A stretch of 64,000 nucleotides of DNA, from contig NZ_CP011382.1 in NCBI RefSeq assembly GCF_000734895.2, positions 3,574,700-3,638,699 of the forward strand. The letters run 5' to 3'. The notes beneath the pieces are model-generated. The model searched no databases and was not told the DNA's origin. It worked only from the letters and a program-made list of their open reading frames with translations. Positions 52,206 to 64,000 of the stretch are shown here, piece after piece (position 1 is the stretch's first letter; every line of letters begins with the position of its first letter). The translations under genes were made by a program, and so were the position numbers. Source of the DNA: Calothrix sp. 336/3. GTDB lineage: Bacteria; Cyanobacteriota; Cyanobacteriia; Cyanobacteriales; Nostocaceae.

Positions 52206-53363
52206 ATGTTGAAAATTTTGATAATTGATGATGACCCAATTGTAAGAACTGTCTTAAAGAGAACTTTAGAAAATCAAGGTTATCAAGTAACAATTGCCCA
52301 AAACGGAGAAGACGGGATTAAATATGCCAAAGAAATTAAACCGGCACTAATTATTTGTGACTGGATGATGTCTTGTATCGATGGTTTAGAAGTTTGTCGT
52401 CGCATCAAAACAGAACCAGATTTAAAAACTACATTCTTTATCTTATTAACTGCAAAAGGGGCACAAAGGGGAGAGGAAGAAGATAGGGTTCGTGGATTAG
52501 ATGCAGGTGCAGACGAGTTTATTTCTAAACCCATTGAAATGAATGAGTTGAAAGCACGAGTTCGTGCAGGGTTGAGACTATACCAATTACACGAGGATTT
52601 AAAACTTCAAAAACAAACTTTAGAAGTATTAAACCAAAATTTACGAGATGAATTAGCAGAAGCAGCTGACTACGTGCAGTCACTTTTACCCTCCCCTCTC
52701 CTCGGTAAAGTTAGCACCGAAACATTATTTATTCCTTCTGCTCAATTGGGAGGTGATTGTTTTGATTATTACTGGATTGATGATGATAATTTAGTTATTT
52801 ATTTACTCGATGTTTCAGGACATGGTGTAGGTTCCGCTTTGCTTTCTGTCTCAGTACTAAATTTACTGCGATCGCAATCATTACCTAATACGGATTTCCG
52901 TAAACCTGGTGAAGTTTTAAAAGCGCTAAATCAGAATTTTCAAATGAGCGCCCATGGTGATAAATACTTTACTATTTGGTATGGAGTTTACAATTTTTCT
53001 GCGCAACAGCTAATTTATGCTAGTGCGGGACATCCGTCTGGAATTTTGTTATCTCAAAACTCTCAAAATCTGGCAGAAGTAAAACAATTAGACTCTCTTG
53101 ATTTACCAATTGGCTTTATCCCAGATGTCAATTTTGATGAGATGAAACTTGAGGTTTTGAAAAATAGTAGTTTATATATTTTCAGCGATGGAGCTTATGA
53201 AATACCTCAGGCAAATGGCACAATATGGGGCATTGACGCTTTTATTAATTTATTGTTACAATCTCATCGACAGCCTTTAGACGATATTTTAAATAATATC
53301 AAAACAAGTCATGGGTTGACAAATTTTGATGATGATTTATCTGTAATCAGGGTAATTTTCTAG
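52206..53363 (+). CDS. Response regulator with PP2C/SpoIIE-type phosphatase output (RsbU-like)
   Basis: 385 aa. A receiver domain (residues 1-122) shows the acidic pocket IIDDDP, phosphoacceptor D52 in ICDWMM and K108 in ISKPIE. A helical linker (about 125-155) follows, then a PP2C phosphatase domain with AQLGGDCFDYYWID, LLDVSGHGVGSAL, SAGHP and IFSDGAYE. Such proteins dephosphorylate anti-sigma-factor antagonists in partner-switch cascades. No antagonist or anti-sigma gene is adjacent. It stands 473 bases before the polysaccharide locus on the same strand and might control it, but nothing proves that. Confidence 0.92.
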   Translation: MLKILIIDDDPIVRTVLKRTLENQGYQVTIAQNGEDGIKYAKEIKPALIICDWMMSCIDGLEVCRRIKTEPDLKTTFFILLTAKGAQRGEEEDRVRGLDAGADEFISKPIEMNELKARVRAGLRLYQLHEDLKLQKQTLEVLNQNLRDELAEAADYVQSLLPSPLLGKVSTETLFIPSAQLGGDCFDYYWIDDDNLVIYLLDVSGHGVGSALLSVSVLNLLRSQSLPNTDFRKPGEVLKALNQNFQMSAHGDKYFTIWYGVYNFSAQQLIYASAGHPSGILLSQNSQNLAEVKQLDSLDLPIGFIPDVNFDEMKLEVLKNSSLYIFSDGAYEIPQANGTIWGIDAFINLLLQSHRQPLDDILNNIKTSHGLTNFDDDLSVIRVIF

Positions 53364-53836: not shown

Positions 53837-55279
53837 ATGAATTCAGATTTTGAACCTCCGCCAAAAAATTTGGTGATCATTGCATCCGCAGGAGGAGTTA
53901 TTATGGCGATCGCAGCAATTATAGGGTTGAATTTTTGGTCTAAAAATATTCAAAATAATGCTGTTGCCACACAACCTAATCAAGTTAGTAAACCTGTAGA
54001 TAAATCAGCTATTTCGTCAAATGACCCTGTAGGGATATTAGACACTAAATCCATCTTTAAGCCAGGAAATCCCGTAGCTAGTAGTCAAATTTCAGAGAAA
54101 AGTCTTCCAAAGGCTACTAAACTCAACCCAGATGAAATAGAAGTTGCTCGTCAAGCTTGGTCTTATTTCCAGCGTAATTGGAATGCCAAAACCGGATTAG
54201 TCAATTCCACAGATAATTTTCAGTCAGTAACAATGTGGGACCAAGCAGCAGCGATCGCAGCTTTGGTAAGTGCTAGAGAATTAAATCTTGTCAGCAAGGT
54301 AGAGTTTGAAAGCAAAATGGGGCAGATGCTGAAAACTTTAGCATCATTACCTTTATATAAAGGGGAATTACCCAATAAGGTTTACAACAGTAAAACACTA
54401 CTGCCAGTTAATTATGGAAAAGTAGATCAAAAGGAAGAAATTGGTTGGTCAGCCATTGATTTGGGACGGATGGCTATTTGGTTAAAAATAGTTGGTGCAA
54501 AATATCCTAAATTCCAAGCTCAAACTGAAAAGGTTTGGAAATCTTGGAAAGTTGACCGTCTCACAAAAAATGGCAACATGTATGGTACGAGTGTCATTGA
54601 CAAGAAAGAACAATACAATCAAGAAGGGCGTTTAGGTTACGAAAACTATGCTGCCTATGGTTTAAAATTATGGGGTTTGAATGTTGAAAAAGCCCTAGAT
54701 TATAAATCTAAAGCTGAATTTGTTAACCTTTACGGACAAGGTGTTCCCTACGATCGCCGAGAGTTTCATAATTCTGGTGCTAACAATTATGTTCTGAGTG
54801 AGCCATATATTCTTGATGGCATCGAAACCGGATTTAAATCATTGCCGAAAGTTTATTCAGACAGAATTTTAGCCGCTCAAGAAGCTCGCTATCAACAAAC
54901 AAATCAACTCACTGCGGTGACAGAAGATAATTTAGACCGCGCTCCCTATTTTGTCTATAACAGTTTGTATGTAAATGGGGAACCTTGGGCAACTATTACC
55001 GATACCCGTGAGAAGCATAATAATTTACGTTTTGTCAGTACAAAAGCAGCTATCGGTTGGTATGTTTTGAATGACACAGAATATACTCGCAAACTGTTTA
55101 ACTTTGTGACTAGTAATCTCAAAACAGAAAAAGGTCTATATAACGGCTATTACGAAGTTTTGAAAGAACCGAATCGTGCTTTAACCGCAAATAATAATGG
55201 TGTAATTCTCCAAAGTTTGCTCTACAAAAAAGTTGGACAGCCCCTTGTCAATTGGGCAGGAGTTAAACAACCTAAATAA
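53837..55279 (+). CDS. DUF3131 protein, membrane-anchored
   Basis: 480 aa. One N-terminal membrane helix (residues 11-33) and a Ser/Pro/Gln-rich tether precede a DUF3131 domain (about 95-475). Conserved blocks recur in all four copies of the locus: TMWDQAAA, KGELPNKVYN, IGWSAIDLGRMA, EGRLGYENYAAYG, SEPYILDGIETG, LTAVTEDNLDRAPYFVYN and LTANNNGVILQSLLY. Invariant acidic residues (D of MWD, E of GELPN, E of TEDN) sit where a glycosidase could use them. Family function is unknown to me; helix-rich repeats and GT2 neighbours suggest a role on polysaccharide. TTAGGAGC lies 9 bases before the ATG. Confidence 0.85.
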   Translation: MNSDFEPPPKNLVIIASAGGVIMAIAAIIGLNFWSKNIQNNAVATQPNQVSKPVDKSAISSNDPVGILDTKSIFKPGNPVASSQISEKSLPKATKLNPDEIEVARQAWSYFQRNWNAKTGLVNSTDNFQSVTMWDQAAAIAALVSARELNLVSKVEFESKMGQMLKTLASLPLYKGELPNKVYNSKTLLPVNYGKVDQKEEIGWSAIDLGRMAIWLKIVGAKYPKFQAQTEKVWKSWKVDRLTKNGNMYGTSVIDKKEQYNQEGRLGYENYAAYGLKLWGLNVEKALDYKSKAEFVNLYGQGVPYDRREFHNSGANNYVLSEPYILDGIETGFKSLPKVYSDRILAAQEARYQQTNQLTAVTEDNLDRAPYFVYNSLYVNGEPWATITDTREKHNNLRFVSTKAAIGWYVLNDTEYTRKLFNFVTSNLKTEKGLYNGYYEVLKEPNRALTANNNGVILQSLLYKKVGQPLVNWAGVKQPK

Positions 55280-55305
55280 ATTATCTCATTTAACACAATT
55301 AGAAC

Positions 55306-58281
55306 ATGCTACAGCAAAATCGAAAATATAGGTGGATGCGATCGCTTGCCCTATTTCTTGTGGGGATATGGCTACAATTTCTGCTATGTATTCCCACGGG
55401 AGAACTTGCACAAGCACAAAATCCATCGGATAAAAATAATAGCTGTAGTGTGATTACTGCTCCTTTGACAGCAGAGGAGCAAACCTATGCAAAAGCTGCA
55501 TGGCAGTATTTTGTGAATAACTACCAACAAAATACAGGATTTACCAATTCCACTGGTGGTTATCCTTCGGGGACACTATGGGATATGGGTAATTATCTCA
55601 TGGCTTTAAATGCTGCACGTTGGTTGAATTTAATCCCCCAATCGGAATTTGACCAACGATTTAATAAGTTTTTGACAGGTTTAGGAGCTTTAAAGCTATT
55701 TGAAGATGGCTTGCCAAATAAGGTATACCATGCTGGTAACGGAGCAATGGTTGACTATGGTAATAATCCGATTGAAAAGGGTATTGGTTGGTCAGCTTTA
55801 GATATTGGTAGAATACTTGCTGCATTTGATATTGTCCGTACCTGTCATCCCCAATATGGAGATTGGATTAAAGGTATTTTAGCTAAGTGGCAAATTGCGC
55901 GATCGCTGAAAGATGGACAGCTATATGGTGCAACCATCGCCCCTGATAAGTCAACAATGTTGGTTCAGGAAGGACGTTTAGGTTATGAAGAATATGCTGT
56001 TCGGGGATATGAACTATGGGGGTTTAAAGCACCAAAAGCAGCAGCGTTAGAGCCATTTGAACTTGTTGATGTCAATGGTGTTAAATTACCAGTGGATAAG
56101 CGCGACTATAAAAGTACAAATGCCAATAATTATGTAGTTAGCGAATCCTATATTTTGGATGGTTTGGAATTTGGTTTAGGTGGTTATTTAAAAGAATACA
56201 CAGCCAGGGTATTAGAAGCGCAAAAGCGGAGATTTGAAGCAACTGGACAACTCACCGCAGTTACAGAAGACAACATCGATCGCGAACCATATTTTCTTTA
56301 CAATACCCTGTACTCGAACGGAAAAACCTGGGCAACAATTACAGAAAAAAATGAGGATTATCCTCAGTTCCGTAGTATTAGTACAAAAGCTGCATTTGGG
56401 TGGAAATATTTATACCCTGATAATGCCTACGCACAGAAACTATTTGACGTTGCCAAAGACTTACGTAGTCCTGATGGTGGTGGGTTTTATGCAGGCTTAT
56501 ATGAAGAGACAAAACAACCAAATAAGGTGCTTACGGGTAACACCAATGGCTTAATTATGGAAATTTTGTACTATAAAGCCCGTGGAAATAAACCCTTGAT
56601 TGGTGGCGATCGCGTTGGTTTTGCTCCCTTTCCTAGCAACGATAAGCAAACACAAATAGCCAATAATCCCCCAGCAAATAATCCTCCTCCACCTCCTCCT
56701 AGTTCTCCTGGTAAAAATCCCCCTCCTCCCCCTCCTCCAGCAAATAATCCTCCCCCAGTTAAAAATCCCCCTCCAGCAAATAATCCTCCTCCAGTTAAAA
56801 ATCCCCCTCCAGTAAATAATCCTCCTCCAGTTAAAAATCCCCCTCCAGCAAATAATCCTCCTCCAGTTAAAAATCCCCCTCCAGCAAATAATCCTCCTCC
56901 AGCAAATAATCAATCAAGCAAAATCGAACCAATTCCTCCAGTGGGGGAACCCAAACCATCACTGTGTCCCGTGCCAGAAAAAGGAGCTACTGTAGTTCAG
57001 CTGAGGTATGCTAGAGCCGCTTGGGCATATTTTCAAGCAAATTCCGACCGAGATACGGGACTAATTAGCGATCGCAGTGACCTCAAAGGAGCTACCCTAT
57101 GGGGATTGGGTGATTATCTTGCCGCACTCCATGCTGCACGGACTCTAGATATAATTTCTGCCAAAGATTTTGATCGCCGCACTCGTTATCTACTCGGCGC
57201 GTTGTCAAAAATACAGCTATTTACCGGAGAATTACCCAACCGCAGTTACGATACTCGCACCCTGCAACCAGTAGACTATGGTGGAAATCCAGTTCCTGAA
57301 GGCACAGGATGGTCTAGCCTTGATACTGGACGTGTGATGGCAGCCCTACATATGTTAAAGACTTGTCATCCTGAATACACGGATGCTGTGGATAATATAG
57401 CTTTGGATTGGTCATATCTGCGAGTTGTTCGCGATGGCGTTCTTTCCAGTGCAAATTTAATTAAAGACCAAATTGGACGTTCCGTACCTCGTGTACTTCC
57501 GGAAACCAGATTGGGATACGAAGAATATGCAGCACGAGGGTTTCAACTGTGGGGATTCAATGCAGATCGTTCTGCTGTGGGTGGAGATTACGAAAAAGCA
57601 ACAATTGAAGGGGTGGAAATTCCCATCCAGCGTCGTCGTCAAGATACCAAATTGAAGGTGAACCAATACACCATTAGTAATCCATTTTTACTCTATGGAC
57701 TGGAATTTGGATTTGACCCGCAAATGAAGGAAATTGTCTTGCCAATTATGCAAGCTCAAGCACAACGCTATCGTCGTACAGGTAAACTCACAGCATCCGG
57801 TACAACATTAATCAATCGTGAACCCTATACAATTCACAATTCGATTGTCGGACGGGGTGAACCTTGGGCAACTTTAACCGATGATGGTACCCCCATAACC
57901 GAAAAGCGTTTGGTGAGTACTGCTGTTGCCTATGCCTATCATGCCCTATTTCCCGACGATACCTATGGCAAAGAATTAATGCAGGGAATCACCGATTTAT
58001 ATAATCCCAACATTGGTTATTACGAGGGATTTTATGAATCCGATGGCAAAAGCGCGATTGGTTTTACCAGTAGTACCAACAGCATGATTTTAGAATCTCT
58101 TCTTTATCAGCTTACCCAACATCAACCATTGATTCGTCCCAACGGCAATAGCAATTCCCCTTGGTGGAAAGCTATCGATAAAAGTGATTCTGGGCGGGGA
58201 TTACCTATGGAGTCAGCACCACGGATTAAATATGTCAGTGATCGCAATTCTGCTTACTGGTTAACCACTAGTACAAAATAA
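55306..58281 (+). CDS. Secreted protein with two DUF3131 domains joined by a Pro/Asn repeat
   Basis: 991 aa. A signal peptide (about 1-37, ending ELAQAQ) is followed by DUF3131 domain 1 at about 50-435. Residues about 454-540 are a low-complexity linker of NNPPPVKNPPPA units. Domain 2 lies at about 560-955 and ends HQPLIRPNG. Domain 1 keeps all family motifs (LWDMGNY, DGLPNKVYH, TEDNIDREPYFLYN). Domain 2 is divergent: LWGLGDY, GELPNRSYD, but the TEDN block became SGTTLINREPY, so its catalytic-looking glutamate is missing. One active and one binding-type domain is a reasonable inference. 26 bases after the preceding gene. Confidence 0.87.
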   Translation: MLQQNRKYRWMRSLALFLVGIWLQFLLCIPTGELAQAQNPSDKNNSCSVITAPLTAEEQTYAKAAWQYFVNNYQQNTGFTNSTGGYPSGTLWDMGNYLMALNAARWLNLIPQSEFDQRFNKFLTGLGALKLFEDGLPNKVYHAGNGAMVDYGNNPIEKGIGWSALDIGRILAAFDIVRTCHPQYGDWIKGILAKWQIARSLKDGQLYGATIAPDKSTMLVQEGRLGYEEYAVRGYELWGFKAPKAAALEPFELVDVNGVKLPVDKRDYKSTNANNYVVSESYILDGLEFGLGGYLKEYTARVLEAQKRRFEATGQLTAVTEDNIDREPYFLYNTLYSNGKTWATITEKNEDYPQFRSISTKAAFGWKYLYPDNAYAQKLFDVAKDLRSPDGGGFYAGLYEETKQPNKVLTGNTNGLIMEILYYKARGNKPLIGGDRVGFAPFPSNDKQTQIANNPPANNPPPPPPSSPGKNPPPPPPPANNPPPVKNPPPANNPPPVKNPPPVNNPPPVKNPPPANNPPPVKNPPPANNPPPANNQSSKIEPIPPVGEPKPSLCPVPEKGATVVQLRYARAAWAYFQANSDRDTGLISDRSDLKGATLWGLGDYLAALHAARTLDIISAKDFDRRTRYLLGALSKIQLFTGELPNRSYDTRTLQPVDYGGNPVPEGTGWSSLDTGRVMAALHMLKTCHPEYTDAVDNIALDWSYLRVVRDGVLSSANLIKDQIGRSVPRVLPETRLGYEEYAARGFQLWGFNADRSAVGGDYEKATIEGVEIPIQRRRQDTKLKVNQYTISNPFLLYGLEFGFDPQMKEIVLPIMQAQAQRYRRTGKLTASGTTLINREPYTIHNSIVGRGEPWATLTDDGTPITEKRLVSTAVAYAYHALFPDDTYGKELMQGITDLYNPNIGYYEGFYESDGKSAIGFTSSTNSMILESLLYQLTQHQPLIRPNGNSNSPWWKAIDKSDSGRGLPMESAPRIKYVSDRNSAYWLTTSTK
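56670..56911 (+). repeat. Tandem repeat coding for Pro/Asn-rich linker
   Basis: A 36-base unit coding NNPPPVKNPPPA recurs about four times with variants. It is rich in CCTCCTCCAG and AATAATCC words and lies entirely inside the 991-aa gene. The copies are nearly identical at the DNA level, so the array should vary in length between strains. Confidence 0.85.
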
Positions 58282-58336
58282 GGATTTTGGCTTTGTTTTT
58301 TTGATATATTAGAACGTCAATCATTATCGTAAGTAA

Positions 58337-59902
58337 ATGGTAAAAAAACTGAGTAAATATAGGTTGGTGATAAATGTAGAGAATACCTGTATCTCACGAA
58401 AAATCAGCCTTTCTTCAAGATTTAAAGCAGATAATATATTCGTTAAAATATTTTTTTTATCCTGCACTTGGAGTTTATTGACAACCAATGTTCATGCATT
58501 AGAACTGAACGACAATAACTCACTAAATTTATTTTATAGAGAGAAAAATTTTCAACCCATTCCCTCTATTGAAAATCTGGAAGAAAATCTGGAATTAAAA
58601 CCAGCATCTTACTTAGAAATATCTCCCAATAATTTCCCTAGCTTCAAACAAACAAATGTATCTATATCCGAGGAAGAACATGATAAATTAGATTTTGGGG
58701 AAGAGTCAAAAAAAGGTATAAATTCAGTAACAGATATAGAAGAATATTATCATCAAATCCAGTATACAAATGATACAAAGATAACTGATAATAAGAACAT
58801 AATTGTATCATCAAGAAAAACAGAATCTCAAACATTACAATCCTTAATATTAAGCACTGAACAAGAAAAGCATAGATATCATAAATTCGAGAAAATATTA
58901 ATTTCTGCACCAAATAATTTTAACCCAGGGAAGAAATTACCACCACCTCCACCACCTCCACCACCCAAACCAGTTAAACCTCCAGAAAGTAAAACACCTA
59001 GTAAACCTCCATTAGTTTTAGAAAGTATTCAGACAAATTTTCGCAATGATTTCAACAAATTTAGTCAGCAGAATACATTTTTTGAACCAACCTTTCAATT
59101 TGGGCTAGAAAACGGACAAAAATTCAGTATTAAACCCGGATTTAATACCTTTAAACAACCTAAATTTGAGGACGTCACAAATATTCCCCTCCAGTTTGGC
59201 TGGCAAACAAAAATTGAGAAATTCACCATTCAAACAGCAGGTGGGATTGACATATTTAATCGCCTACCAATAGCTTTGAATTTTAACCTACAAGTCGATC
59301 GACCTATTTTTGTCAATTTAACCCCTGATTACAAACTAGATTCGGCTTTATTTTTGGCAGCAGTAGTCGAACATGGTCCCTATAAAAGTAGCGCTCAAAC
59401 TCTAGAAAAGTTAATTACAGCAACCCGTACTGGATTAAATGCTTATTGGCAAATTAAACCCAATATGAGCTTTTTTACCCTTTATCGCATAGGTTTTTAT
59501 AACGATGGGAATTTCGAGCAACAATCCTTCAGTCGTCTCGAACATAAATTTGGGGAATTTTATCTTGCGGGAAATCTTTTTGCTTGGACATTCAATCGCG
59601 ATCGCCAAGAAGCTGCTGGCTATTTTTCTCCTAAAAATTTTCTCGTATATAATCTCGAAGCTGGTTGGGATAAGAAAATATTTGACTTTCTCAGTTGCCG
59701 ATTAAGTGCTAATTTAGGGCAACAAATACTCAATGGAGAAACAACCAACGGAAGCACCTATCAAGCTCGTTGTAATGCTAACATTTTACCAAATATTAAT
59801 TTAGATTTAGGATATACCTTTAGTAGCTCTCGCGAACTAGATACAGGTAATAGCCCCTATAATAATCGGAATCTTTCTGGTCAGATTCAAATTAAATTTT
59901 AG
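58337..59902 (+). CDS. Outer-membrane beta-barrel protein, BcsC-C-terminus-like, with poly-Pro neck
   Basis: 521 aa. A long positively charged N-terminus and a signal helix (about 36-54, ending NVHA) precede a disordered acidic region (to about 195). A stretch of ten prolines with PKPVKPPESK (about 201-225) follows. A C-terminal region of about 290 residues of alternating strands ends with phenylalanine (QIQIKF), the outer-membrane barrel signature. Blocks such as AAGYFSPKNFLVYNLEAGW and LSANLGQQIL resemble the C-terminal pore domain of cellulose export protein BcsC (PF05420), without its TPR half. A glucan export pore is therefore suggested, not proven. Confidence 0.7.
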   Translation: MVKKLSKYRLVINVENTCISRKISLSSRFKADNIFVKIFFLSCTWSLLTTNVHALELNDNNSLNLFYREKNFQPIPSIENLEENLELKPASYLEISPNNFPSFKQTNVSISEEEHDKLDFGEESKKGINSVTDIEEYYHQIQYTNDTKITDNKNIIVSSRKTESQTLQSLILSTEQEKHRYHKFEKILISAPNNFNPGKKLPPPPPPPPPKPVKPPESKTPSKPPLVLESIQTNFRNDFNKFSQQNTFFEPTFQFGLENGQKFSIKPGFNTFKQPKFEDVTNIPLQFGWQTKIEKFTIQTAGGIDIFNRLPIALNFNLQVDRPIFVNLTPDYKLDSALFLAAVVEHGPYKSSAQTLEKLITATRTGLNAYWQIKPNMSFFTLYRIGFYNDGNFEQQSFSRLEHKFGEFYLAGNLFAWTFNRDRQEAAGYFSPKNFLVYNLEAGWDKKIFDFLSCRLSANLGQQILNGETTNGSTYQARCNANILPNINLDLGYTFSSSRELDTGNSPYNNRNLSGQIQIKF

Positions 59903-60197
59903 TTTTACAGCTAATTTTATAGCTAATGTTATTTGATGCCTTTAGCGCTTGCATAAATAGCATCAATAAAAAGATAATGATTATTAAAATTAATCTGGTT
60001 TTCTCCATAGAATAAACCAGATATCACAATATTAAAACTATTATTTTATCAAGACTTTAAGTATATTTGCGATAGTATTTACTTTATATAAATACTATAA
60101 ATGTATAAAGTGAATATGAACTTAATTGTTATCAGTGATTGTAATCAGCTACCAAAAGTTTAGAGATTGATTTAATGCATTTATTTAAATATTTGTC

Positions 60198-61346
60198 ATG
60201 GATGCAAGCAATGCTATTACTATTAAACAGATTTGGCAGTGGAGATATAATCCTTTAGCTTATGGAAAAAGAGATTTAAGAATTGATTTTCTTCGAGGTA
60301 TTGCAATCATTTTTATGGTTTTTAGCCATTTAGAAAGTCCTTCTTTATTCAGTGCTATCAACCGCAATAACATCTATGCAAGTGCAGCTGAAGGATTTGT
60401 CTTCATCTCCGGTTTAGTTCTGGGAATGGTGACATTGGGACGCATTCGCAAAGTTGGTTTTCAAGAATCGATGAAAAAACTACTTCAGCGTTCCTGGATA
60501 CTATACAAAACTAGCTTCATTCTCATCTCAGGATTAGGGCTATTAAGTATTATTGCCCCTAACTTGACCCGACCTTCCTTTGACATCGCTCCCGGTGCTT
60601 GGTGGGAAATCATTTTTGCTGCTGCGACTTTCCGATTAGCTCCTCCAGTTGTCGATATTCTACAACTATATGTACTCCTATTATTGATTTCGCCAGTGAT
60701 TTTCTGGTTATTGAGAAAACAATACTGGCTGCCTGTTTTGGCATTTTCCTGGTCACTGTGGAGTATACAACAGTTACATCCCTACGCTTTAAGTTTTCAG
60801 ACCATAGATAGAGAGCATACCTATTTTGCCTTGGCTGGTTGGCAGTTGTTATATGTTCATGGTTTACTTGCCGGTTATTATCGCAGGCGACTGCAAGCTT
60901 TATGGGCAAAGATTCCTCAATTGCCCCTTACTATCTTTTTTATTTTAATTGTTATTAGCTCAACTATTGCTGCCTATCATGATATGAGATTAGGATTGTT
61001 CCCTAGTAAAGTTGCAGATAGAATTGCTTGGTTAAATTGGACAGATAGAAGTCAATTGGGTTTTATTCGTTTGATTAACCATATTGGCTTTTTTCCCCTA
61101 CTTTACGTTATTGTAGATAGATTTTGGCAGCCTTTATATAAAACCTTGGGAAAACTATTAATTACCCTGGGGCAAAACTCTTTATATATATACATTCTGC
61201 ATGTTCCCCTAACTTTGATTTGGTTTTCAATTCCTGGTTTGGTGAATGGTCATCCCATCGTTACAACCCTTGCTCAAGGTGTAGCGATCGCGCTGTTATG
61301 GTTCCTTGCCAAAAAAGAAGTGCTGTTTAATATCATTACCCATTAA
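60198..61346 (+). CDS. OpgC-type membrane acyltransferase
   Basis: 382 aa with about ten membrane helices. The N-terminal block RDLRIDFLRGIAIIFMVFSHLE and then AAEGFVFISGLVLGMVTLGR match the OpgC group of acyltransferase-3-like proteins. The end, YIYILHVPLTLIWF, is typical as well. OpgC adds succinyl groups to osmoregulated periplasmic glucans in proteobacteria. Here the natural target would be the product of the neighbouring GT2. A 295-base spacer precedes it; the next gene follows after 12 bases, so they are co-transcribed. Confidence 0.85.
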   Translation: MDASNAITIKQIWQWRYNPLAYGKRDLRIDFLRGIAIIFMVFSHLESPSLFSAINRNNIYASAAEGFVFISGLVLGMVTLGRIRKVGFQESMKKLLQRSWILYKTSFILISGLGLLSIIAPNLTRPSFDIAPGAWWEIIFAAATFRLAPPVVDILQLYVLLLLISPVIFWLLRKQYWLPVLAFSWSLWSIQQLHPYALSFQTIDREHTYFALAGWQLLYVHGLLAGYYRRRLQALWAKIPQLPLTIFFILIVISSTIAAYHDMRLGLFPSKVADRIAWLNWTDRSQLGFIRLINHIGFFPLLYVIVDRFWQPLYKTLGKLLITLGQNSLYIYILHVPLTLIWFSIPGLVNGHPIVTTLAQGVAIALLWFLAKKEVLFNIITH

Positions 61347-61358
61347 CTCCATTACTCT

Positions 61359-62663
61359 ATGACACAACAAATCCACTTCTATTCAAGTCTTGCCCCTCCA
61401 AATATATTTCGACAATTGCTAGTTTGTGGGGCGATCGCTCTCATCACCATTGGCATCCATCAAACTCTCAAATGGCGTGAAAGAAATACCCTTGATACTC
61501 CAGTTGTTATTACTAAGCGCTATCGCTTGCGAGCAGAAGATATGCAACTAGCTCGTACTGCTTGGACATATTTTCAGAAAAATCGCCAATCAACGGGTTT
61601 TGTTTCATCTGCTGCTGACTTTCCTGCCATAACAATGTGGGATGTGGGTAGTCAATTAGCGGGAATGGTGGCAGCACGAGAACTGGGTTTATTATCTCCC
61701 CATGAATTTGACACTTGGATGCAACAAGTTCTCAAGTCTTTAAACGAATTACCTTTGTATCGTGGTGAATTGCCCAACAAAGTTTATGATGCAAAAAATC
61801 TAATTCCCATCAACTACGGAAAACTAGGTAAACCCCAAGAAATCGGTTTCTCTGCACTCGATTTGGCAAGACTAGCTAGGTGGTTAGATATCATTGCCAA
61901 AAAATATCCCCAACATACAGCAGCTAGTCGTTCTGTCATCGCTCGTTGGAAAGTACAGCGACTAGTATCTCCACAAAAGCAACTAATGGGAACTGATGCA
62001 AGTACTGGAAAAGAAACGTGGAACCATGAAGGACGTTTAGGTTACGAACAGTATGCTGCTTATGCTTTAAAAACAATTGGTGTAGTTGCCAGCACATCCC
62101 TTGACTCAAAAGCAGAGGCAAAATTCGTCAACGTCATGGGTACCCTCATACCCGTAGACAAACGTACTACTTACCGGAACCATGTCACCAGCGAACCCTA
62201 TATTTTAGATGGCTTAGAAACTGGATTTCAAGCTTTACCAGCAGATTATGCTGCCAGATTATTACAAGTTCAATTGCGACGCTACCAAGCCACAAATCTT
62301 CTCACAGCTTGGTCGGAAGATAATCTTGATCGTGAACCCTGGTTTGTCTATAACTGCATTTTTGTAGACGGACAACCATGGAAAACAGTTGATATGTCGG
62401 GTAAAGAATTTCCAGATGCCCGTGGTAGTAGTCTCAAAGCCGCCGTAGGCTGGCATATGCTTTTCCGCACGAGATATACAGAAAAATTATACAAGGGTAT
62501 GCGCTGGTTAGGCGATCCGGAACGGGGTGCTTTTGCCGGGTTTTATGAGCAAACTCAAGAACCTAACCGAGCATTAACTTTAAATACCAACGGTATTATT
62601 TTGCAGTCTCTTTTGTATAACTATGTTGGCAAACCTTTGATAGTTTGGGCTGATGAAAATTAA
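61359..62663 (+). CDS. DUF3131 protein, membrane-anchored (third gene)
   Basis: 434 aa. A membrane helix near residues 15-38 and a short tether precede one DUF3131 domain (about 55-430). Its blocks match the 480-aa paralogue closely: TMWDVGSQLA, RGELPNKVYD, IGFSALDLARLA, EGRLGYEQYAAYA, SEPYILDGLETG, LLTAWSEDNLDREPWFVYN, NRALTLNTNGIILQSLLY. All acidic positions are kept. It lies between opgC-like and the glycosyltransferase gene, 107 bases before the latter, so it probably acts with that enzyme at the periplasmic side. Confidence 0.86.
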   Translation: MTQQIHFYSSLAPPNIFRQLLVCGAIALITIGIHQTLKWRERNTLDTPVVITKRYRLRAEDMQLARTAWTYFQKNRQSTGFVSSAADFPAITMWDVGSQLAGMVAARELGLLSPHEFDTWMQQVLKSLNELPLYRGELPNKVYDAKNLIPINYGKLGKPQEIGFSALDLARLARWLDIIAKKYPQHTAASRSVIARWKVQRLVSPQKQLMGTDASTGKETWNHEGRLGYEQYAAYALKTIGVVASTSLDSKAEAKFVNVMGTLIPVDKRTTYRNHVTSEPYILDGLETGFQALPADYAARLLQVQLRRYQATNLLTAWSEDNLDREPWFVYNCIFVDGQPWKTVDMSGKEFPDARGSSLKAAVGWHMLFRTRYTEKLYKGMRWLGDPERGAFAGFYEQTQEPNRALTLNTNGIILQSLLYNYVGKPLIVWADEN

Positions 62664-62769
62664 GAAATTCATCAAGCCAACTAATTTAGTACCTGAAAAA
62701 TATGTAACTTTGTGTCTACGTATTTTACCCACATAAACACCTTTTGATTTTCACAATTGACATCAAAAA

Positions 62770-64000
62770 ATGACTTCATTTTACTTGTCTGAACAAACCA
62801 ATAACTTTTCTGGGAATAGCCGTTCATCCCTGAAAAAAAGAACCCTATTGTTTCGGTTCATAGCTGAAATAAACTTAATTTTTGGCGCATGGTATTTGTA
62901 TTGGCGGGTTCATAACTCTGTTAATACAGATGCATTGTGGCTGTCAATCCCTTTGCTATTTGCAGAAATTTATAGCTACATCGGTGGCGTGATGTTCACT
63001 ATTGGATTATGGCGACCTATCGAGCGCAGAATTAAATCATTACACCAATTAACACCAATTTTCCCCCAAGACAATTATCCCCAAGTTGATATTTTCATTG
63101 CTTGCTATAACGAAGCACCGGAACTAGTAGAACAGACTGCAAGGGCAGCATTAGCAGTTGATTATCCGCCAACAAAACTCCGTGTCTACGTTCTAGACGA
63201 TGGGAATTCTCCTGATATGCGGATGATGACTGAAAAATTATCTCTAGAAGATTTACAGTCCCCACCATTACAAGCAGCAGCAGACAAAATTGACAAAAAA
63301 CATTTCCAACTTGTTTCCAGACTAGAAGAATTAGATAATCTAGCATTAAATAGTCAACATACTGAAACTTGGCTGAATGAATTATCTTCAGGGAAAGCCA
63401 CTACAACGGATGCTCAAGCAACTAGTTTTGTTGAAAATCTTCGACAGCTATTACTATGGTTTCATCCAGAAAGTAAAAATATTCAAGATGCTCTGGCTTC
63501 CGAGCGTCAAAACCTTAAACAGGCAATTCATCAACAAGAACTTGAACTAGTAAATCTAGCTCGATTACACTATATTGCTCGTCCCAAACCAAAGGGAGTT
63601 GCACATCATGCTAAAGCTGGAAATCTCAATTATGCCATCTTTGCTGGTGAAACATCTGGAGAATTTATTCTGACTTTAGATGCAGATCATATTCCTAAGC
63701 CTCAATTTTTGAAACGTGTCTTACCCTATTTCTATAATTACAACCTATTCACGGGTACATACGAGTCAAATAAAATTGCATTCGTTCAGACTCCCCAGGA
63801 TTTCTACAACCTTCCTGAGGACGATCCTTTTGCACATAACGCGCATTTATTCTATGGACCTATCCAGCAAGGGAAAGACGGGATGAATTCCGCTTTCTAC
63901 ACAGGAACAAATGCGATTCTGCGACGGGAAGCATTAGTGAATGTTGGTTTACAGTATTTCTCCGATGAATTTGCCCAAGATGAAAATCGTCTCAGTGAAT
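62770..64000 (+). CDS. Cellulose synthase-like glycosyltransferase family 2 (3' end beyond window)
   Basis: 410 codons are visible and the frame is still open at the window end. Two N-terminal membrane helices (about 26-47 and 57-81) precede a GT2 domain: VDIFIACYNEAPELV, the first aspartates in VYVLDDGNSPD (D143, D144), HHAKAGNLNYAI, the DxD in LTLDADHIPK (D303, D305), FVQTPQDFYN and FYTGTNAILRREAL. This is the BcsA/cellulose synthase pattern. About 120 residues separate the DDG and YIAR blocks, including a predicted helical insert (RLEELDNLALN, EIHQQELELVNL-like); bacterial BcsA has far fewer. Product linkage unknown. The C-terminal QxxRW and any PilZ domain lie outside the window. Confidence 0.9.
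   Translation, partial: MTSFYLSEQTNNFSGNSRSSLKKRTLLFRFIAEINLIFGAWYLYWRVHNSVNTDALWLSIPLLFAEIYSYIGGVMFTIGLWRPIERRIKSLHQLTPIFPQDNYPQVDIFIACYNEAPELVEQTARAALAVDYPPTKLRVYVLDDGNSPDMRMMTEKLSLEDLQSPPLQAAADKIDKKHFQLVSRLEELDNLALNSQHTETWLNELSSGKATTTDAQATSFVENLRQLLLWFHPESKNIQDALASERQNLKQAIHQQELELVNLARLHYIARPKPKGVAHHAKAGNLNYAIFAGETSGEFILTLDADHIPKPQFLKRVLPYFYNYNLFTGTYESNKIAFVQTPQDFYNLPEDDPFAHNAHLFYGPIQQGKDGMNSAFYTGTNAILRREALVNVGLQYFSDEFAQDENRLSE

Follow-up and report, generated by a model that had tools for sequence, protein, structure and literature searches.

We analysed a 64,000-nt stretch of Calothrix sp. 336/3 (contig NZ_CP011382.1; host genome 6.42 Mb), hereafter the window. At its 3' end lies a locus that combines a cellulose-synthase-family glycosyltransferase (GT2), an OpgC-type acyltransferase, an outer-membrane barrel and proteins of the family DUF3131 (PF11329). 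A first-pass annotation had described it as six genes on one strand. These six genes were verified on the plus strand at or near the coordinates assigned to them, and three regulatory genes also belong to the locus. That annotation had proposed reading beyond position 64000. The operon indeed continues there on the same strand with the end of GT2, followed by a STAS gene and a HATPase_c_2 gene. The features are as follows, in window numbering.

52206..53363, plus strand: response regulator-SpoIIE/PP2C fusion, 385 amino acids (aa); Pfam Response_reg 9.6e-28, SpoIIE 8.1e-37.
53837..55279, plus strand: DUFA, predicted membrane-anchored DUF3131 protein, 480 aa; PF11329 3.8e-156; N-terminal transmembrane-like segment at residues 9-35.
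55306..58281, plus strand: DUFB, two DUF3131 domains and a proline-rich linker, 991 aa; two PF11329 stretches, E 0, 1052 bits.
55486..56586, plus strand: DUFB domain B1, conserved TED glutamate retained.
57004..58116, plus strand: DUFB domain B2, Thr replaces the TED glutamate.
58337..59902, plus strand: putative outer-membrane pore protein, N-terminal region of about 200 residues mostly disordered, followed by a predicted 16-strand barrel (residues 226-520).
60198..61346, plus strand: OpgC-type membrane acyltransferase, 382 aa; PF10129 2.3e-52, PF01757 1.3e-11.
61359..62663, plus strand: DUFC, predicted membrane-anchored DUF3131 protein, 434 aa; PF11329 1.3e-133; transmembrane-like segment.
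62770..64000 within the window, ending at 64761, plus strand: GT2, cellulose-synthase family, 663 aa.
64987-65316, plus strand, outside the window: STAS gene.
65435-65917, plus strand, outside the window: HATPase_c_2 gene.

The assignment of four DUF3131 domains to three secreted or anchored proteins holds: all four are full-length, and the proteins carry transmembrane-like or hydrophobic segments (residues 10-35 in DUFB, which is probably secreted). The host genome contains four DUF3131 matches, every one within the locus. An antisense open reading frame (ORF) of 120 aa (56551-56913, minus strand) is the opposite-strand reading of the repetitive, proline-rich linker in DUFB and is unlikely to be a gene.

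The GT2 protein has intact signature motifs VLDDG, DADHIP, TEDMNT and QRMRW and matches Pfam Cellulose_synt at 2e-37. Family and motifs together suggest that it would make a beta-glucan from UDP-glucose. Its score with the NCBIfam CelA model (322 bits) lies under the cut-off of 699, and no PilZ domain was found in the full-length protein (Pfam scan at 0.01). The host genome encodes a separate CelA-type cellulose synthase scoring over the NCBIfam cut-off, and thus the locus is not the cellulose operon of the host. On these three grounds a plain cellulose operon was rejected. In a midpoint-rooted tree, to be read with a long-branch warning, a 100/100 branch separates the cyanobacterial and proteobacterial GT2s of such cassettes, which lie together, from BcsA and CelA.

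The product of 58337-59902 had been compared to the BcsC pore. It has no Pfam match at 0.001. Among 26 aligned pore members 18 match BCSC_C at E <= 1 (best 1.8e-5, window copy 0.13). The model has 16 strands, counting the broken strand 262-273 once; residues 1-202 are mostly below pLDDT 50. The nearest solved barrel in VIA-align is PgaA (Z 27.4, 2.1 A, 269 residues), followed by PelB (24.1) and BcsC (23.8), and then by the CymA porin (17.8). No TPR was found by Pfam scan or in the 26-member alignment. The predicted structure thus points to an exopolysaccharide export pore, closer to PgaA than to BcsC.

The structure of DUF3131 was modelled on the basis of 45 aligned domains, taken from the window and from named cyanobacteria. 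The model (mean pLDDT 96.3, pTM 0.95) predicts an (alpha/alpha)6 barrel with high confidence. This bears out the earlier suggestion of an alpha/alpha-toroid glycosidase or transglycosylase. The top PDB matches in Foldseek are GH144-type proteins and cyclic glucan synthase (CGS). In VIA-align the top match is the GH189 cyclisation domain 8wy1 (8wy1_B; Z 37.4, 2.6 A, 352 aligned), followed by GH144-type proteins (32.6-34.1), other SGL-clan and CGS entries (30-34) and GH162 (25-26). Beyond GH189 and the SGL clan the score drops to 22.5 and then to about 20-22 (other glycosidases, glucoamylases, epimerases). The model falls within both the GH189 and the SGL-clan fold. At the sequence level, the DUF3131 profile matches 8wy1 at 1.6e-4 (positions 1-89), and hhalign aligns it with six CGS (3e-9, 96%, 130 columns) and five GH144-like proteins (7e-6, 84%, 112 columns). 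This supports homology of the N-terminal third of DUF3131 to CGS and GH144-type proteins. With DUFA as a single query, phmmer retrieved nothing beyond chance level from the PDB sequences (best E 0.092, chiefly chalcone synthases).

Candidate catalytic residues could be placed by alignment. Here and below, statements with a PMC number refer to the parts of the cited papers that were available. In TiCGS, E1442 is the nucleophile and E1356 the acid/base (PMC10834661); the numbering was verified on the chain against E1356, E1400 and E1442 of that paper. Model Asp114 (DUFA D208) aligns with the aspartates of CGS SSVD and GH144 STID, and its position may be that of the general-base candidate discussed in PMC12102758. 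Model Glu269 (DUFA E363, in the TED motif) was placed on the CGS nucleophile E1442 by a low-confidence hhalign alignment with the CGS insertion removed; because of this insertion, hhalign over the full CGS misplaces the second half. Candidates for the acid role are E169 and E175, whose position is ambiguous in alignments with CGS and GH144-like proteins. Candidate counterparts of XcSGL E239, F286 and Y367 are E169/E175, Y/F230 and Y345 at the alignment level. In DUFA the putative catalytic residues would be D208, E330 and E363. Among 55 DUF3131 sequences, Asp114 is conserved in 54, Arg117 in 55, Glu236 in 54, Asn360 in 55, Glu169 and Glu175 in 48 each and Glu269 in 36, with Thr at position 269 in 17.

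A midpoint-rooted DUF3131 tree, in which B2 and B3 were flagged for long branches, divides the cyanobacterial members into five subfamilies with good support, A, B1, B2, B3 and C. Domain B2 is probably altered or non-catalytic. Since this subfamily lacks the glutamate, DUF3131 copies that are probably active occur side by side with probably inactive ones in the cassettes. At least one domain with the TED glutamate is present in the window and in each of the proteobacterial cassettes with more than one aligned domain, those of Paracoccus liaowanqingii, P. seriniphilus and Pantoea. Taken together, DUF3131 is most likely an unrecognised branch of SGL-clan type, a glycosidase or transglycosylase, as judged from the predicted fold. 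A literature search that had most subscription journals outside its coverage yielded no paper on the function of DUF3131 or of the cassette. The name DUF3131 appeared in three of the papers searched and PF11329 in none, and the SGL-clan paper contains no word starting with DUF.

A divergent DUF3131 class II, used in the conservation count and the tree only, adjoins GT2 on plasmids of Mesorhizobium and Sulfitobacter (loci L111 and L112). Polysaccharide deacetylase-type domains occur on the DUF3131 protein in Mesorhizobium (a weak match) and on GT2 in Sulfitobacter. This suggests an amino-sugar polymer for this class. Four cyanobacterial genomes (L131, L132, L133, L136) have CGS-like ORFs, each roughly 2,930 aa long and matched by Pfam Glycoamylase, and two shorter frames resemble them (L129, L130).

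A PF11329 scan of 292 cyanobacterial genomes matched 19, of which three with short fragments (G068, G091, G236) were dropped, leaving 16. The G236 fragment lies inside a 2925-aa frame also carrying PF10091. GT2 orthologues at E <= 1e-60 are likewise present in 16 genomes, and 15 genomes have both (Fisher p 5e-23, kinship not corrected). The genes are at most 2.2 kb apart in 14 of these 15 and far apart in G191. The exceptions to co-occurrence are G035, a fragmented metagenome-assembled genome with DUF3131 and OpgC and no GT2 match, and G131 with GT2 and no DUF3131. In G125 DUFA is solitary and a DUFB-GT2 cluster lies elsewhere in the genome. Named genomes were represented by the best 80 of 577 DUFA relatives. 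The 51 loci that span at least 21 kb contain DUFB in 37 cases, GT2 in 32, STAS in 30, PP2C in 28, the barrel in 23, HATPase in 21 and OpgC in 4. Of the two linkages proposed for DUF3131, that to GT2 is supported, whereas OpgC is optional.

OpgC_C is present in four of the 292 genomes, all with DUF3131 (p 6e-6), that is, in 4 of the 16 DUF3131-bearing genomes. The window copy matches PF10129 with 178.6 bits against a cut-off of 21.4. Among the best 80 named loci six have OpgC and seven DUFC, and all six OpgC loci carry DUFC. The locus of Calothrix sp. PCC 7103 is collinear with the window (87% identity in the DUFA-to-barrel block, 86% in the GT2 block). It does not contain the 2.9 kb OpgC-DUFC pair, and the gap between the barrel and GT2 is about 145 bp; therefore acylation looks like an add-on. 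In cyanobacteria OpgC plus one DUF3131 gene is an optional two-gene insert. OpgC had also been assigned to osmoregulated periplasmic glucan systems. The OpgC domain is present, but the host genome has no match to OpgG (PF04349), which was detected in the E. coli control. A classical OpgGH system was thus ruled out.

The three regulatory genes, missed by the first-pass annotation, form a complete RsbU/V/W-type partner-switch set: the PP2C phosphatase upstream, and STAS and HATPase_c_2 downstream of GT2. Also missed were fusions of the kinase with the synthase. In genome G131 the GT2 protein contains HATPase_c_2 at residues 212-327 (Pfam 1.1e-16), between the DDG and DADH motifs. The inserted domain is 34% identical to the HATPase following the window (blastp 1e-16). 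The fused form, aligning end to end, was found in six genomes including G131 out of 26 matching genomes (195 searched). Four more fusions are present among the 41 GT2 ORFs over 500 aa in named loci, those of Symplocastrum torsivum, Calothrix sp. MO_167.B12, Nostocaceae MO_167.B47 and Acaryochloris sp. IP29b. The two sets comprise ten distinct sequences. Thus ten relatives of the locus carry the HATPase kinase domain inside GT2.

No separate HATPase gene was found in the ten fused loci examined, six of which span only about 2.6-4.6 kb 3' of GT2 or reach the contig end. A separate HATPase gene is present in all five non-fused loci with 6 kb on either side of GT2; the 38 named GT2 loci, none of which extends that far, are not among these five. 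The synthase motifs are retained in five of the six fused GT2s of the genome set, and five of the six genomes have DUF3131; the TED and QRxRW motifs are no longer present in the GT2 of G131. The domains inserted in G454 and G473 have lost the N-box and GRG residues, and in these two genomes no STAS gene was found within the 20 kb examined. Fused and separate forms of GT2 are divided by a single branch (100/99), so that one fusion or one fission is enough. By the Rosetta-stone argument, the ten fusions suggest that the partner-switch kinase acts directly on GT2. According to PMC8256260, SypA of Vibrio fischeri has no known target, direct action of Nostoc punctiforme HmpV is unproven, and Anabaena has a STAS-glycosyltransferase protein.

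Similar cassettes were observed outside cyanobacteria. In tblastn with DUFA, 27 of 72,556 plasmid records matched. Comparable cassettes are present on annotated plasmids of Paracoccus liaowanqingii, P. seriniphilus, Pantoea sp. JZ29, Chimaeribacter arupi, Rhodobacteraceae SC52 and Pseudooceanicola algae, and one was found in Vibrio sp. THAF190c by ORF search. The cassette of P. liaowanqingii encodes a TPR-PgaA_barrel protein (1.2e-8). The plasmid acyltransferases are OpgC_C in Pantoea and P. liaowanqingii, but P. seriniphilus, SC52 and Pseudooceanicola have plain Acyl_transf_3 instead; the Vibrio ORFs compared include no acyltransferase. A plasmid of Sphingobium RAC03, which is not among the DUFA tblastn matches, carries a cassette-type GT2, STAS, HATPase, SpoIIE, BcsS, GH16 and a separate PilZ gene (L115:9029-15593).

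In the literature, block 3b of Klebsiella pneumoniae has cellulose synthase, three DUF3131, OpgC, a hybrid kinase and an anti-sigma factor with its antagonist (PMC12974863). DUF3131 is enriched in a salt-shock module of Shewanella piezotolerans WP3 (PMC8371737), and a Brucella gene bears the DUF3131 label (PMC6382750). In a collection of E. coli (20,395 records) distant blastn with the Pantoea GT2 and DUF3131 DNA gave no match, which applies at the DNA level only. The Brucella gene is presumably the CGS gene.

These observations partly support the original interpretation, in which the beta-glucan product, its acylation and its export are plausible. Our preferred reading, to which we assign a probability of about 70%, is that the locus is a synthase-dependent beta-glucan (exo)polysaccharide system, distinct from the cellulose synthase of the host, with DUF3131 proteins trimming or transglycosylating the chain and a kinase gating the synthase. 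GT2 would polymerise UDP-glucose at the inner membrane. The anchored or secreted DUF3131 proteins would cut, re-join or cyclise the chain in the periplasm at an active site of GH189/SGL type, much as BcsZ acts on cellulose or as the cyclisation domain acts in CGS. Copies without the key glutamate may only bind the chain. The OpgC-DUFC pair, where present, would acylate the glucan and process the acylated product, and the 16-strand barrel, given its structural kinship with PgaA, PelB and BcsC, would export the polymer. The response-regulator/PP2C protein would dephosphorylate STAS. The RsbW-like kinase, its state set by the balance of STAS-P and STAS, would act directly on GT2.

A more specific proposal combines three parts. 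GT2 would be gated directly by an RsbW-type anti-sigma kinase, a separate docked subunit here and an insert in a GT2 loop in other cyanobacteria, instead of c-di-GMP and PilZ; DUF3131 would be a new large SGL-clan family of transglycosylating or trimming enzymes; and the machine, of which no description was found, would be common to cyanobacteria and proteobacteria. We give this joint proposal even odds.

The best surviving alternative, which we nevertheless consider unlikely, is ordinary secretion of cellulose or of a beta-1,3 or mixed-linkage glucan, with DUF3131 as a BcsZ-like trimming endoglucanase and the switch controlling transcription rather than the synthase. The GT2 motifs are intact in cyanobacteria, and the hmp switch of Nostoc punctiforme has no proven direct target (PMC8256260). 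A beta-1,3 or mixed linkage is suggested by the GH16 genes in the cassettes of P. liaowanqingii, Vibrio and Sphingobium. However, the CelA score, the absence of PilZ and the second synthase in the host argue against cellulose, and the HATPase fused into GT2 points to direct control. Moreover, all eight proteobacterial cassette GT2s compared read QR[FY]KY at the QRxRW position. Known bacterial beta-glucan synthases are reported to conserve the acceptor-stacking Trp of this motif (QxxRW) fully (PMC6821405), and so the linkage in these eight may be different.

Somewhat less probable is a split CGS. GT2 and DUF3131 would then jointly produce a small periplasmic glucan, cyclic or capped, to which OpgC adds succinyl groups; no long polymer would be exported, and the barrel would be a glucan porin. 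CGS joins GT2 and GH189 in one chain (PMC11842490), GH189 is the top structural match of DUF3131, and 36 of the 55 sequences have a glutamate aligned to its nucleophile. In Dickeya, succinylation of periplasmic glucans depends on OpgC (PMC4726272). On the other hand, the barrel groups with pores for long-chain exopolysaccharides, OpgC occurs in just a quarter of the DUF3131-bearing cyanobacterial genomes, and neither GH94 among the locus proteins nor OpgG in the genome was matched. That DUF3131 is a non-catalytic scaffold holding the glucan between synthase and pore, as the Thr-bearing copies and the membrane anchors of some proteins would allow, is improbable given the near-invariant Asp114, Arg117, Glu236 and Asn360 and the glutamate-bearing domain kept in the window and in each of the three multi-domain proteobacterial cassettes.

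Several observations weigh against the kinase-gated glucan system with enzymatic DUF3131. Sequence homology extends over only ~140 N-terminal residues of DUF3131. When its C-terminal half was compared alone with that of CGS, hhalign gave no alignment (probability 0.2%); the catalytic residues of the second half were matched with low confidence, and the match required removal of the CGS insertion. There are two competing glutamates for the acid role, both of them lost in the Sulfitobacter/Mesorhizobium branch. SGL-clan activities in the cited papers, as far as available, are all on beta-1,2-glucan, whereas the cassette GT2 is kin to beta-1,4 and beta-1,3 synthases. In 19 of the 51 named loci no GT2 was found within reach (DUFA alone in 14, DUFA with other cassette genes in 5). 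The Sphingobium plasmid and G131 have the GT2-partner-switch set without DUF3131. STAS is found near the fused GT2 in only three of six genomes (G131, G421, G388), and in G411 the kinase residues are kept, yet no STAS gene was found within the 20 kb examined.

The locus can be compared with several known systems. As in CGS, GT2 goes together with an (alpha/alpha)6 domain; the fold is that of the CGS domain, and the N-terminal sequence is homologous. However, the DUF3131 domains (~370 aa) reside on separate predicted periplasmic proteins without the long CGS insertion, Pfam scans of the locus proteins gave no GH94 match, and an outer-membrane pore and a partner switch are present. With the SGL clan (GH144, GH162, GH192-194) DUF3131 shares the fold, the conserved Asp aligned to that of GH144 STID, and a Tyr-acid motif near the C-terminus, but many copies have a glutamate at what reads from the motif as a GH144-like alanine position. 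The published clan tree, in its available part, does not include DUF3131. The BcsABCZ system has a GT2 of the same superfamily, a 16-strand pore and a periplasmic glycosidase, a role possible for DUF3131. Unlike it, the locus has no PilZ, BcsB or BcsZ match and no TPR in the pore, and its GT2 is on a branch of its own. PgaA and PelB are the closest solved barrels, although the cyanobacterial pore has a disordered N-terminus where TPR would be. In V. fischeri SypE/SypA and N. punctiforme HmpUVW, PP2C, STAS and HATPase are similarly linked with polysaccharide genes, whereas in ten relatives of the locus the kinase is inside the synthase. Klebsiella block 3b is similar in gene content and is listed without interpretation in the available text of PMC12974863.

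This analysis offers a concrete, testable enzyme class for DUF3131, a domain adjoining GT2 genes in cyanobacteria and proteobacteria. In Klebsiella the domain belongs to an accessory block that is linked to population structure (PMC12974863). A candidate target is also proposed for STAS/kinase partner switches in polysaccharide control. If the kinase indeed gates the synthase, this would be a control mechanism separate from c-di-GMP.

Additional genes were observed near some cassettes. A weak GH26-like gene of 350-390 aa (0.0007-0.004, below cut-off), missing from the window, adjoins DUF3131 or GT2 at L008:15953-17098, L012:8601-9656 and L023:11540-12718. A gene of the PIG-L de-N-acetylase family lies between GT2 and STAS at L007:13120-13839, and several Nostoc loci have ORFs of like size at this position. 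Globin genes are located 3' of DUF3131 in Pantoea and Chimaeribacter (L109:14816-15250, L110:14870-15319), and a heme-NO-binding gene near the Pseudooceanicola cassette (L117:6723-7265). One possibility is that these last neighbours provide an oxygen or NO input.

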